From: Desulfatitalea tepidiphila
GTDB taxonomy: Bacteria; Desulfobacterota; Desulfobacteria; Desulfobacterales; Desulfosarcinaceae
Assembly: GCF_001293685.1 (NCBI RefSeq)
Contig: NZ_BCAG01000001.1
Span: 806,001 to 870,000 of the forward strand
DNA length: 64,000 bases
Reading direction: 5' to 3'
Shown: one piece after another, positions 4,362-46,818 of the stretch
Layout: each line of letters begins with the position of its first letter
Numbering within the stretch: position 1 is the stretch's first letter
Position numbers and translations under genes: made by a program
Notes under the pieces: generated by a model
The model's input: only the letters and a program-made list of their open reading frames with translations
Told to the model about the DNA's origin: nothing
Databases searched by the model: none

Positions 4362-5939
4362 TTAGGCGCCGCGGCGATGGATGCGGTCCAGCAGCGCCGT
4401 CATTTTTTCCAGCGCGTCGGCTTGAATGGCCGCGGCTGTCTTGGAAACGGCTTCCTCTGTCTCTTCGGCCATGCGTTTTTTCATCTGGGCTTCGCGTTCG
4501 GCGGCCCGCTTCTGACGCAGGGCGTCTTCCTCGGCCTCACGCTTGGCCACTTCGGCTTTGGCTTTGGCTTCGGCTTCGGCCTTGGCTTTGGCTTCGGCGT
4601 CGGCCTTGGCCTTTGCCGCTGCTTCGGCTTTGGCCTTGGCATCCGCCTCGGCCTTGGCTTTTGCCGCTGCTTCGGCTTCGGCCTTGGCTTTGGCACCCGC
4701 CTCGGCCTTGGCCTTGGTGTCGGCTTCGGCCTTGGGGGCATCTACCGCCGGAGCGGCAGCGGCGGCCGGTTTGGGCGCCTCGGCTTTGGGTGCCTCTGCC
4801 TTCGGAGCGGCCGGTTTGGCTGCAGCCGGTGCTGCCTTGGGCGCTTCAGCCTTGGGTGCCGCCTTCTTGGCAGCGGCCGGAGCGGCCTTCTTTTCTTCTT
4901 CGATTTTCAGGTCAGGCTCGGGAGCGATGGCGGCCAGGTCGACCGGTTTGGCCTCAAGCATCTTGGTGATGGCGGCCACATCCTTGGCGCTGCCGCCGTC
5001 GATCAACAGATCGATGTAGCTTTTGGCCAGGCGGATCGATTCCGGATGGCGCATGATCACCACGTCGCTGCCCGCGAGCAGATAGGTGACAGCACCGACC
5101 GCTTCCATCAGAATGCCGCGCTTTTCGGGGTCGCCCAGTGTGGGGGCCTCATCGACCGGCTGCTTGGCTTCCTTGCATTTCCATACTTCGTTTCCCAGGT
5201 TGTTGATGACCGGCAACTGCAGCTTGTCGTCGCCCTGGGCCAATGCGGCCATGCGCAGACGCTCCATGACCGAATAGCTGTATTCCATGCCGTAACCCAG
5301 GCCGCCGGTGGTCGGATCGATAATGACCCTCTTCAAGGGCATGCCCAGGTTTTCCAGCAGAATGTTGACCTGCTTGGCCAGGTTGACATCGATGGGGCTG
5401 GAAGAGATCAGCGTATGGCCGTACGCCATGGCCGCGGCCCCGATGCCTTTGTGATTCTTGTCTTCCACCGGTCCCAGGATGAGATTCGCGCCCTGGTGAT
5501 CCTCGGCGATTTTTTTCAAGGTCGCTTCGTCCTTGGCCGGGTTGGCGCATCCCCAGATGATCAGCGGTACATTGATGGCGCCCAGCACCTTTCCGACCGT
5601 CGCAGAGGCCGACTCCGGGGACGCGTTGTCGCCGTTGGGATCGATGCTTTTCAATTGCAGCACGATCAGTTCGGCGCCGTAGGTGTCGACACATTTTTTG
5701 GCCCAGGCGGCCGGGTCGTTGACCACGTCCTTGTACGGCGCCAGGGCGGCTTCGGCCCAGTCCGTCGGCGTTGTGTCCCAAATTTCCATTGCAATCTTAG
5801 GCTTGTTGGGCATCTCGCCTTCGAAATGATAGAACGGATAGCCAGTTTCTCCGCCAACAGTCACGGCCTTGTCCCCTTTGCCCAGGGTGACCGCTTGGAC
5901 GCTGCCGGCATAACTTTCTTTGTAGAATTCGAAAGCCAA
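4362..5939 (-). CDS. acsD: CODH/ACS delta subunit (corrinoid Fe-S protein small subunit) with a long Ala/Lys/Glu tail
   Basis: Residues 1-340 match the delta subunit (CdhD/AcsD) of the corrinoid iron-sulfur protein, the TIM-barrel partner that passes the methyl group to acetyl-CoA synthase. Recognisable blocks include ELIVLQLKSIDP and GGLGYGMEYSYSVMERLRMA. Residues about 341-525 form a low-complexity tail of Ala, Lys, Glu and Pro with AKAEAEAKAKA-type repeats, predicted as a long helix, ending in a more ordinary helix (ALEKMTALLDRIHRRGA). Standard family members stop near the end of the barrel. The start is TTG at 5939, supported by AGGAGG five bases upstream. It is the first gene of the acsD-cooS-acsB operon. 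Confidence 0.9.
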   Translation of the reverse strand: MAFEFYKESYAGSVQAVTLGKGDKAVTVGGETGYPFYHFEGEMPNKPKIAMEIWDTTPTDWAEAALAPYKDVVNDPAAWAKKCVDTYGAELIVLQLKSIDPNGDNASPESASATVGKVLGAINVPLIIWGCANPAKDEATLKKIAEDHQGANLILGPVEDKNHKGIGAAAMAYGHTLISSSPIDVNLAKQVNILLENLGMPLKRVIIDPTTGGLGYGMEYSYSVMERLRMAALAQGDDKLQLPVINNLGNEVWKCKEAKQPVDEAPTLGDPEKRGILMEAVGAVTYLLAGSDVVIMRHPESIRLAKSYIDLLIDGGSAKDVAAITKMLEAKPVDLAAIAPEPDLKIEEEKKAAPAAAKKAAPKAEAPKAAPAAAKPAAPKAEAPKAEAPKPAAAAAPAVDAPKAEADTKAKAEAGAKAKAEAEAAAKAKAEADAKAKAEAAAKAKADAEAKAKAEAEAKAKAEVAKREAEEDALRQKRAAEREAQMKKRMAEETEEAVSKTAAAIQADALEKMTALLDRIHRRGA

Positions 5940-14750: not shown

Positions 14751-15013
14751 CGACATCTCCCTTGACTTGCAGCGGTGTTCATTTAAAATCCCTGGTGTCG
14801 ATCGAGCGGCAGAAAAGCGTCGGCCGAAGACACTGCCACTGCGATATGGCAGATGGCGGTAATTGTAAACCGTGAATGTGAAAAGCCGTCACCCCCGATG
14901 GCAGGCGTGTTGGTCAAGGGCATGCCGACTCGGGTTTGCCGGTGAACCCGCTGGGCGGGGAGGCCGGCGAACGGCACACCTCCGGCGGTTTAACGCCGGC
15001 ACAAGGAGCTGTC
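14751..15013 (+). promoter_or_regulatory. GC-rich, hairpin-prone leader before the HAD gene
   Basis: The divergent region between trmO and the HAD gene holds several short inverted repeats in its second half. GCCGGTGAACCCGC with GCGGGGAGGCCGGC, and GCCGGCGGTT-type arms, lie between about 14930 and 15002, ending in AAGGAG just before the ATG. This suggests a structured 5' leader. It did not fit any riboswitch consensus I could recall. Confidence 0.3.
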
Positions 15014-23452: not shown

Positions 23453-23487
23453 CGCGTGTCCATCCTTCGCCTATTTGGGGACCCAGC

Positions 23488-23784
23488 GATTCTAACTGAA
23501 TGTGATTCACCCTGAAGGGCCTGCCTTCCAAATGGTTTTTGATAAAAAATCGCATCGCAACGGAGATGGCAGGCGTGTGTGGAGCAGGTGGCCAGGGCCA
23601 CGTGAGCTTACGGTCAATAGTGCCGATTGAATGCAAACGGCGGACAAGCGGCCCAGACTGTTTGAGCGCAGCGAGTTTCTGGGCCGCCCGCCGTGCATTT
23701 TACCGGCACTTGACCGCTTGGCGTGTGGCATCGGCCACCTGTTCCACACACGCCGGGTTTAATGAATAGCGTTCAGTTAGAATC
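23488..23784 (+). repeat. Copy A of a ~290-bp nested palindromic element
   Basis: The ends are 15-bp inverted repeats, GATTCTAACTGAATG (23488-23502) and CGTTCAGTTAGAATC (23770-23784), with one mismatch. Moving inward, GGCGTGTGTGGAGCAGGTGG pairs with its counterpart CCACCTGTTCCACACACGCC. CGGTCA plus AGTGCCG pair with CGGCACT plus TGACCG. A long core hairpin is formed by GCAAACGGCGG, CAAGCGGCCCAGA and TCTGGGCCGC, CCGCCGTGC. It resembles the element at 46302 along its whole length, shows no coding capacity, and lies between the GNAT and exchanger genes. Confidence 0.85.
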
Positions 23785-24001
23785 CTCGTTGGGGCCCGAC
23801 ACACATTGCCTTTTTCGACCGAGAACGATAGAAGATGCAACACTTTCATCGGCGGGCAGGGTGCGCCAGTGCCGCACTTAAGTGAACGCGCTGCCATGCC
23901 GATAAGATATCGGCCTGTATGGTGTGGCCCAAGGTCCCCTCGACACCGGGCGTCGTGTTCGCCGATGGGACGGCGGAGGGTATACAGAAGATCGGCTGTA
24001 A
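23785..24001. other. Intergenic segment after palindromic copy A
   Basis: No gene is seen. It contains one perfect small hairpin, GCCGAT-AAGAT-ATCGGC, around 23895-23912. The exchanger gene that follows lacks a strong ribosome site next to its ATG. Confidence 0.4.
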
Positions 24002-44570: not shown

Positions 44571-44584
44571 AAACGGAGTGTTTG

Positions 44585-46309
44585 ATGGCACCCGGAACAG
44601 ACAAACAGCGTAAAGAAAGGCTCGATGCAGAGGTCGGTACAACCCATAAATCGTGGCATGATCGCGTGCGTGTGGCGCTCATCTATCCCAATCACTATGC
44701 CGTGGGCATGGCCAGTCTGGGATTCCAAACGGTTTACCGGTTACTCAATGCAATGGATCATGTGGTTTGCGAGCGTGCGTTTCTCCCTGAAACGAATCAC
44801 GCCGACCGGCCGTTGGTTTCCCTCGAATCGGGGCGCAGGTTGCGTGAGTTCGATGGTTTGGCTTTTTCGCTCTCATTCGAAAATGATTTTGCCAATGTAC
44901 TGACCATCCTGCAAAAAGCGGAGCTCCCCCTGTCATCCGCCCATCGTGGCGCCTCCCTCCCCCTAATTTTGGCAGGGGGAGTCTCCGCTTCTCTCAATCC
45001 AGAACCCCTCGCGCCGTTCATAGACTGCTTTCTGATCGGCGAAGCCGAAGCCCTGCTATCAGATTTTTTCGAGTGTTTTCATCCGGGAATGGATCGTCGC
45101 GAGTTTTTGTTGAAGGCTGCCCGGGATCTGCCCGGCGTTTACGTGCCTTCCTTCTACGAGGACAGCCACCATCCGGATGGGACCCTGGCCGGTTTTACGC
45201 CACTGGCCGAGGTCCCTGAAAGAATAACGCGGGTCTATGCCGCCGATATCGGCCAGTTCGATACGACCAGCACGGTGGTGACGCCGCACACGACATTTGA
45301 AGACGCTTTCCTCATCGAAGTGAGCCGGGGATGCCCTCATGGCTGCCGTTTTTGCGCCGCCGGCTATGTGTACCGTCCCCCGCGATATCGTCCCTTGCCC
45401 CGGCTGCTTCATGCCCTGCAACAGGGGGCCGACCAGACTGGAAAGGTCGGCCTCCTGGGTGCGGCGGTATCCGACCTTCCCGATCTGAAAGCACTGTGTG
45501 ATTTCGGAAGCCGACATGCATTGCAGCTCGCTTTCAGTTCGCTGCGGGCCGATGCCCTGGACGACGGGCTGATCGCGGCCATGAAGAGCGGTCGCCTTAA
45601 AACCGCCACCATCGCACCCGAGACAGGCTCGGAGCGCATGCGTCGGGTGATCAACAAAGGGATGAGCGAAGCGGTCATCCTCGATGCGGCCGAACGGCTG
45701 GTGGCCAACGGTATTCCCAACCTGAAGCTCTATTTCATGGTCGGTCTTCCCACAGAGACGGACGAGGATGTCGCGGCCATCGTCACTCTCGTCAAAAAGA
45801 TAAAACATCGTTTCCTGGGATCGAGTCGCGCGCGCGGCCACATGGGCACCATCACCGTCAGTCTCAACTCCTTCATACCCAAACCGTTTACACCGTTTCA
45901 ATGGACGGCCATGGATGATGTCGTCCACCTCAAACAGAAAATCAAACAGATCAAGATGGACCTAAAAAAGGTGGCCAACGTGCGTGTCCATGCCGACGTG
46001 CCGCGCTGGGCTTACATTCAGGCCCTGTTGTCACGCGGTGATCGGCGCGTGGCTCAATTGTTGCTGTCGGCTCATGAGAACGAGGGCAACTGGCCCCGGA
46101 CCTTCAAATCTTCCTCCCTCAACCCGGATTTTTATGTTTACCGCGAACGTCCTCGGGATGAACGTCTGCCTTGGGACTTCATCGATCAAGGCTTGAACAA
46201 GCGCTTTCTCTGGAATGAGTATCAGCGCGCTTTGCAGGCCAAGGAAACCCCGCCCTGTCCCGCCGACCCTGAGAACTGTCAGATCTGTGGTGTCTGCAAG
46301 AAATTCTAG
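44585..46309 (+). CDS. B12-binding-domain radical SAM protein
   Basis: A 574-residue radical SAM enzyme with the [4Fe-4S] motif CPHGCRFC (near residue 251) in the stretch EVSRGCPHGCRFCAAGYVYR. It is preceded by a cobalamin-binding-like N-terminal domain (ALIYPNHYAVGMASLGFQTV) and ends in a small cysteine motif (CPADPENCQICGVC). It resembles uncharacterised B12-binding radical SAM proteins, without the fused DUF2344 domain found in some. The reaction is unknown. GGAG precedes the ATG at 44585. Its last codons run into copy B of the palindromic element. Confidence 0.85.
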   Translation: MAPGTDKQRKERLDAEVGTTHKSWHDRVRVALIYPNHYAVGMASLGFQTVYRLLNAMDHVVCERAFLPETNHADRPLVSLESGRRLREFDGLAFSLSFENDFANVLTILQKAELPLSSAHRGASLPLILAGGVSASLNPEPLAPFIDCFLIGEAEALLSDFFECFHPGMDRREFLLKAARDLPGVYVPSFYEDSHHPDGTLAGFTPLAEVPERITRVYAADIGQFDTTSTVVTPHTTFEDAFLIEVSRGCPHGCRFCAAGYVYRPPRYRPLPRLLHALQQGADQTGKVGLLGAAVSDLPDLKALCDFGSRHALQLAFSSLRADALDDGLIAAMKSGRLKTATIAPETGSERMRRVINKGMSEAVILDAAERLVANGIPNLKLYFMVGLPTETDEDVAAIVTLVKKIKHRFLGSSRARGHMGTITVSLNSFIPKPFTPFQWTAMDDVVHLKQKIKQIKMDLKKVANVRVHADVPRWAYIQALLSRGDRRVAQLLLSAHENEGNWPRTFKSSSLNPDFYVYRERPRDERLPWDFIDQGLNKRFLWNEYQRALQAKETPPCPADPENCQICGVCKKF

Positions 46310-46585
46310 TCGAATGTGTTCCACCCTGAAGGACAGGCTTGACAAAAGCTGTTTGATAAAAAAATCGCATGGCAACTTAGAAGGCAGGCGTGGGCAGGGC
46401 CACATGAGCCATGCGGCTTAGTGTCGCTTGAATGCAAACGGCGGACAAGCGGCCCAGACTGTCTGAGCGCAGCGAGTTTCTGGGCCGCCCGCCGTGCATT
46501 TTAGCGACACTTGACCGCTAGGCGTGTGGCATCGGCCACCTGCCCTGCCCACGCCGGGTTTAATGAATAGTCTTCAGTTAGAGTT
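46302..46585 (+). repeat. Copy B of the ~290-bp nested palindromic element
   Basis: Second copy, same orientation as the one at 23488. The core hairpin and its loop are nearly identical, but the outer stems differ in sequence while remaining paired. GGCGTGGGCAGGG pairs with CCCTGCCCACGCC, and AGTGTCGC pairs with GCGACACT, where copy A has different bases. The right end TCAGTTAGAGTT and left end ATTCTAGTCGAATGTG still match copy A. The left end contains the stop codon (TAG, 46307-46309) of the radical SAM gene. Confidence 0.85.
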
Positions 46586-46818
46586 GCTGGGCCTCTGCGA
46601 AGTGGCCTGGCGATCACCGTACGTTCGAATCGATGACAATTCGTAAAAATCTTTGACAGTTCTCTCCCACCAAGTGTTGGGCCATCCTCCGGTCAGGTAT
46701 ATAATTTCAACAGTTTTAGATAGATGCCTGTCATGTGACAGATCCTGTCCCGGCATGTCTTTTGCGTCTTTAAAAACAAGTCAGATTTCGACAACCCATT
46801 CAGAAAGGAGGCAGAACC
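46586..46818 (+). promoter_or_regulatory. Upstream region of hsp20 with a perfect palindrome
   Basis: No gene is seen. It contains TTGACA near 46653, TATAAT near 46700 (too far apart to be one promoter) and a perfect 14-bp palindrome CTGTCATGTGACAG at 46728-46741, a possible operator. No CIRCE element was found. AAAGGAGG stands before the hsp20 ATG. Confidence 0.4.

Follow-up and report, generated by a model that had tools for sequence, protein, structure and literature searches.

Several families of miniature mobile elements (MITEs) have been described in bacteria, among them Correia/NEMIS of Neisseria, Chunjie of Geobacter uraniireducens and the QMITEs of Coxiella. These elements are short, lack open reading frames (ORFs), carry terminal inverted repeats (TIRs) and are flanked by target site duplications (TSDs) of fixed length (PMC10969869). 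They also occur in dozens of copies between genes and have interiors that form hairpins (PMC10969869). Two repeats, copies A and B, in a stretch of 64,000 nucleotides of the Desulfatitalea tepidiphila genome (hereafter the window) share all of these features, the likeness to Chunjie being one of description and not of sequence. They differ from the known MITEs in that their interior has a strand-specific apical module common to MITE families with other ends and to other phyla, and in that no parent transposon was found among the transposase genes and TIR pairs covered. For the module itself there is a real chance of novelty in kind.

The two repeats lie where the first-pass annotation had placed them and align end to end, with 92% identity over the central 164 nt, and the element ends fall 4-5 bp beyond the limits first drawn (Table 1). 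The stems proposed there pair as described. In copy A, AGTGCCG pairs with CGGCACT (arms 23619-23635 and 23694-23710) and GGCGTGTGTGG with CCACACACGCC; in copy B, AGTGTCGC pairs with GCGACACT, the arms being complementary and different from those of A, and GGCGTGGGCAGGG with CCCTGCCCACGCC. As single strands both copies fold better than any of 200 dinucleotide shuffles (z = -13.8 for A and -8.2 for B). Neither has an ORF of its own, which bears out the earlier statement that no open frame or transposase is associated; of the frames listed, one alone overlaps B, a 124-aa frame on the antisense strand that continues into the adjacent gene. Upstream, a radical-SAM-like gene (44582-46309) ends in B and takes its stop codon from B's left end.

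Table 1. Positions within the window of copies A and B, their flanking duplications and their parts.
Feature	Position	Strand	Basis
MITE copy A, 305 bp	23484..23788	+ (strand of folded tip)	full element with ends
Left 9-bp TSD of A, TTGGGGACC	23475..23483	.	flank comparison
Right 9-bp TSD of A, TTGGGGCCC, 8/9 match	23789..23797	.	flank comparison
Left TIR of A	23484..23509	+	TIR consensus; 0 mismatches at 23484
Right TIR of A	23763..23788	-	2 mismatches at 23772-23788
Long stem of A, arms 23572-23601 and 23725-23754	23572..23754	+	87% complementary
Core module of A	23616..23713	+	covariance model R1, 103 bits, E 4.6e-22 (G000:C1:829616-829713)
Apical motif CTGTTTGAGC-GCA-GCGAGTT of A	23658..23677	+	0 mismatches; chance expectation 0.03
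MITE copy B, 292 bp	46298..46589	+	full element with ends
Left 9-bp TSD of B, GGTGTCTGC	46289..46297	.	flank comparison
Right 9-bp TSD of B, GGCCTCTGC, 7/9 match	46590..46598	.	flank comparison
Right TIR of B	46573..46589	-	1 mismatch
Long stem of B, arms 46387-46400 and 46542-46555	46387..46555	+	100% complementary
Core module of B	46417..46514	+	covariance model R1, 106 bits, E 7.5e-23 (G000:C1:852417-852514)
Apical motif CTGTCTGAGC-GCA-GCGAGTT of B	46459..46478	+	0 mismatches

At least 40 near full-length copies of the element are present in the 5.6-Mb genome, in which a covariance model of the core gives 117 hairpin-core matches. The ends of 30 aligned copies carry imperfect inverted repeats (CAGSRATTCTAACTGAA; consensus CAGSRATTCTAACTGAATGYGATTCA), and the 17-bp TIR occurs 198 times in the genome at up to two mismatches, against 2 occurrences of a reversed control. 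TSDs of 9 bp matching at seven or more positions flank 40 of 68 copies, where 0.07 would be expected, and the mean identity of the flanks over 9 bp is 0.69, against 0.26 between unrelated flanks; in the flank comparison of these 68 copies the signal is absent at lengths of 4-8 and 10-13 bp. Since A and B combine TIRs, 9-bp TSDs and many copies with the lack of an ORF of their own, they are copies of a small gene-less mobile DNA element, a MITE, and the view of the first-pass annotation that no named family fits was wrong. Short length (292-305 bp), TSDs of fixed length, high copy number and the lack of a transposase ORF all agree with this assignment, and the same anatomy (TIR, TSD and copy number) shows that the elements have transposed.

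We further note a lone terminal repeat resembling the right end (2 mismatches) between genes at window positions 14778-14794, which is perhaps a decayed copy of the same MITE. Elsewhere in the window (4530-4789), 12-bp tandem repeats encode an Ala/Lys/Glu-rich linker in a gene that adjoins CO dehydrogenase/acetyl-CoA synthase-like genes.

A parent transposon was sought through a single Pfam family in one genome and through a single end motif across the genus. None of the 19 DDE_Tnp_1 genes of the D. tepidiphila genome has the TIR, and these genes were rejected as the parent transposon; TIR scans of this genome and ten congeners gave no transposon-length TIR pair among the positions listed.

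In the genome of a sister species (G007), the insertion of B is present at the identical target site and the hairpin is missing, the two element ends meeting at the junction TTCCACCC-ACGCCGG. This form apparently represents a deletion between short direct repeats that flank the palindrome, a direction of change that we infer. The D. tepidiphila genome contains a 68-bp form whose junction is similar, and among the positions listed further closely spaced TIR pairs hint at more hairpin-less forms.

The central ~100 nt of the element recur without its outer parts in congeners and in another family of the same order, of which a one-contig genome (G039) has 48 sense-strand core matches; two are weak, and eight have an antisense echo as well. 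Within the phylum (Desulfobacterota) the core is found in 23 of 297 sampled genomes. At its apex, a stem of ~10 bp is followed by an invariant internal loop (CTGTTTGA/GAGTT), whose strands are fixed at 8 nt and 5 nt, and then by a GC-GNA-GC mini-hairpin. This module is found in Bacteroidota, Bacillota, Fusobacteriota, Pseudomonadota, Nitrospirota, Desulfobacterota and others, with stems that are wholly different yet complementary. A search pattern for the tip alone (CTGTTTGAGCN{2,6}GCGAGTTT) matched at least 117 stretches of named genomes. The isolates among the matches listed include Flammeovirga, Flavobacterium, Bacteroides, Leptotrichia, Propionigenium, Clostridium, Variovorax and Desulfospira; this taxonomic spread is a sample, among the matches listed, and not a census, and several carriers are MAGs. 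Thirty carrier genomes hold 1-72 tip copies each, against 0-1 for a reversed-pattern control. The first-pass reading depended on further copies in related genomes, and these exist in congeners, across the phylum and in many other phyla.

Within Desulfobacterota, the module lies inside three MITE families that share neither their terminal repeats nor the length of their TSDs: the A/B element (9 bp), the carrier element of G039 (TIR YTCAACTTTCGACTTTCAT, TSD 7-8 bp) and a further family with ends GTTCNNNCTGAAAAATG and a TSD of 6 bp (three copies). Because these carriers differ in their ends and TSD lengths, they must depend on different transposases, and yet they contain one and the same apical module. 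The module is thus shared between carriers and is much older and wider than the A/B MITE, although descent of the tip within a single ancient lineage of elements, instead of transfer, is conceivable. An origin from phages or plasmids was rejected: the core has no match in the phage and plasmid collections, and viral contigs contain only 10 tip loci, three of which are the same coding-like stretch. A tie to a particular gene was likewise rejected, as the 2428 reading frames that lie no more than 2 kb from the motif at 127 loci include no cross-phylum gene family beyond chance neighbours. In some loci a second recurrent motif, TTTTGKTWCTTTTYTTTG...CAAAGAAAAGTA, follows the hairpin, likewise in different phyla (L093, L094 and L110 in Desulfobacterota; L124, L158, L166, L195 and L216 in Bacteroidota and others), and constitutes a second shared module.

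From the paired differences between A and B, the first-pass annotation had concluded that the fold is under selection. Two copies alone do not prove this, as inherited subfamilies or template-switch correction also yield such changes, and distinct wobble and A.C events within the genome number 33 and 24 (p = 0.29). The two-sided complementary changes are real, and they extend far beyond two copies. Among 18 diverse core copies, 15 of 33 pairs show two-sided change, a value that none of 500 shuffles reaches. At 66 gap-free cross-phylum loci, 85.7% of stem cells are paired, compared with 58.5% after shuffling and 29-44% in slid controls, and two-sided change is seen in 263 cells, compared with 87.6 after shuffling. 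The covariation score of these loci is 0.688 against 0.193 for shuffles (0/500 as high) and 0.12-0.29 for slid controls; the shuffle controls ignore relatedness. At 100 distinct loci picked by loop sequence alone, pairing is 70-91% at positions 1-10, with one side of position 1 set by the search pattern, and 35-43% from position 11 on. Descent is hard to invoke for this covariation because most stem positions use all four Watson-Crick types across phyla. The stems are free to vary provided they pair, and the tip is not free; that neither the tip nor the 10-bp length of the stem varies across phyla argues for selection on the fold. We also observe near-identical cores at L260-L278 (G008, G010 and G005) whose outer stems, lying between the marks CACG...AGGCG and CGCCGGCG, are wholly different yet complementary, having diverged fast and still paired.

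A fold that matters on the tip-bearing strand predicts greater tolerance of wobble pairs than of A.C. In a symmetric count, with loci selected by Watson-Crick pairs only, wobble pairs outnumber A.C across phyla by 28:8 (p = 0.001), and by 10:2 once the boundary pair is left out. The ratio in the core within the D. tepidiphila genome is 74:37 by cells and 33:24 by distinct events, and in the TIR, taken as a control, it is 98:87. The orientation of the hairpins relative to replication shows no consistent bias, and a replication-strand bias was rejected: 30 of 43 are oriented against the direction of replication in G039 (Fisher p = 0.015), and the D. tepidiphila genome has no such bias (42:36).

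Among the tip loops, 55 of the 66 triloops are GNA and 12 of the 16 tetraloops are GNNA. These loop letters are the sole independent test for a mini-hairpin, as the search pattern itself dictates the closing GC/GC pairs. Loops of this kind closed by two or more G-C pairs form extraordinarily stable, nuclease-resistant DNA mini-hairpins (PMC4686876), and the tip combines just such a loop with at least two closing G-C pairs. By analogy with this tip chemistry, the module more likely folds as single-stranded DNA than as RNA.

A serious alternative, though in our view an unlikely one, is that the module is a functional RNA, such as a small RNA or an RNA-stability or termination element, which was spread by MITEs, folds in transcripts and is bound by a conserved RNA-binding machine. 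Such an RNA would account for the wobble excess on one strand and for deep covariation in which the helices are interrupted and the internal loops conserved, and there is a precedent in other bacteria, where the stem-loops of MITE transcripts are cut by RNase III (PMC10969869). The tetraloops, however, are mostly not of the RNA type (8 of the 12 GNNA loops are not GNRA), and G-C-closed GNA/GNNA tips are a DNA speciality (PMC4686876). The intergenic sites adjoin gene starts as well as ends in crude gene calls, on which no conclusion is based, and there is no recurrent neighbour gene. Rfam, which the first-pass annotation had named for comparison, also speaks against an RNA: no family reached gathering score in the window and the module matches no Rfam family, the sub-threshold matches being to eukaryotic hairpin families only (MIR1437 is a generic long hairpin).

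It is less plausible, and we consider it improbable, that covariation arises with no selection on the fold, through template switching between arms (quasipalindrome correction) together with inherited subfamily haplotypes. The two-sided changes within the D. tepidiphila genome indeed belong to a few haplotypes (AGTGCCGG, AGAGCCAG and AGTGTCGC), the difference between distinct wobble and A.C events there is not significant, the outer stems in G008, G010 and G005 differ widely yet pair, and the palindrome is open to deletion between short direct repeats, an outcome expected from slippage. These processes would leave unexplained the identical 8+5-nt loop, the GNA tip and the 10-bp stem followed by loss of pairing in many phyla, as well as the cross-phylum wobble excess.

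REP-like repeats whose movement depends on a tyrosine transposase of the REP-associated (RAYT/IS200) type, active on single-stranded hairpins, would match the strand-specific hairpins, their high copy number and the head-away hairpin pairs, 320-550 bp apart, that are frequent in two Clostridium genomes, but this is hardly credible and is refuted for the genomes tested, as no transposase-length ORF lies between the hairpins at two paired loci examined, the apical motif is at 0/22 Y1_Tnp loci from nine genomes, a Y1_Tnp gene is absent from two genomes that contain 30-35 copies, and fixed-length TSDs are a mark of DDE transposition. The spacers of the head-away pairs in Clostridium (L350 and L353, in G366/G367) look structured, for example GACCTATCGGTCTGCGGCTTACCAGCC, and the pairs are possibly a larger composite element.

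We consider it rather probable that A and B belong to a MITE mobilised in trans, with a strand-specific folded module that is maintained by selection and acts as single-stranded DNA rather than RNA. A cut-and-paste (DDE-type) transposase would act in trans, recognising CAGSRATTCTAACTGAA and leaving the 9-bp target duplication. The interior of the MITE is a long palindrome topped by the folded module, which is most likely a transferable or ancient structural part. Whenever replication, cruciform extrusion or transposition leaves the + strand single-stranded, this part is probably recognised or else shielded from nucleases. A role of the tip in nuclease protection would fit, since the palindrome must survive hairpin nucleases, but protein recognition is indicated by the fixed 8-nt and 5-nt strands of the internal loop; a conserved factor may recognise or protect the folded + strand. 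Such a module would aid the persistence or movement of the element, a gain to the element rather than to the host.

An almost unchanging loop on changing, matching stems across phyla and unrelated elements suggests an undescribed conserved DNA/RNA structure. More tentatively, and with doubts outweighing our confidence, we propose that the module spans phyla, probably as folded single-stranded DNA whose invariant tip is read by a protein of wide conservation, and that it was acquired by, or co-evolved with, many unrelated MITE families whose movement or persistence it aids, making it a previously undescribed selfish DNA part. If so, many bacteria would hold dozens of copies not of one sequence but of one folding rule, in which a fixed tip crowns a 10-bp stem whose sequence is free. 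Selection across phyla would then act, as it rarely does, on the shape that DNA takes as a single strand; a large unannotated class of intergenic repeats would be accounted for, and the tip would be a concrete probe for the protein that reads it. It would also caution that covariation in bacterial repeats does not necessarily mean RNA. We found no description of the tip module in the literature covered; subscription papers, for example on Chunjie, were outside its scope, so an earlier partial description is possible.

Other known systems resemble the element or its module in part. REP/BIME repeats with their RAYT are likewise high-copy intergenic hairpins with a conserved single-strand feature. 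Unlike these, the A/B elements are ~300 bp long (292-305 bp) with TIRs and TSDs, and not hairpins of 20-40 bp with a GTAG-type foot; they show no linkage to a RAYT, nor do copies flank a Y1 (RAYT) transposase gene as REPs of that system do. Integron attC sites and the ends of IS200/IS605 are single-strand hairpins recognised by their structure. If the DNA reading is right, the module would share with them a variable stem, conserved unpaired bases and the use of one strand; it differs in having no recurrent recombinase or transposase gene nearby, in its variable flanking ends and in being dispersed and not arrayed. Identity with an integron attC site is unlikely, because copies are single, dispersed and without a recurrent neighbour gene. 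The tip itself is like the DNA mini-hairpins d(GCGNAGC) and d(GCGNNAGC), as GAGC-GNA-GCGAG contains exactly that hairpin and the GNNA variant also occurs (PMC4686876). These mini-hairpins are a chemical motif and not a family of genomic elements, and the module adds to them the conserved CTGTTTGA/GAGTT loop around the tip.
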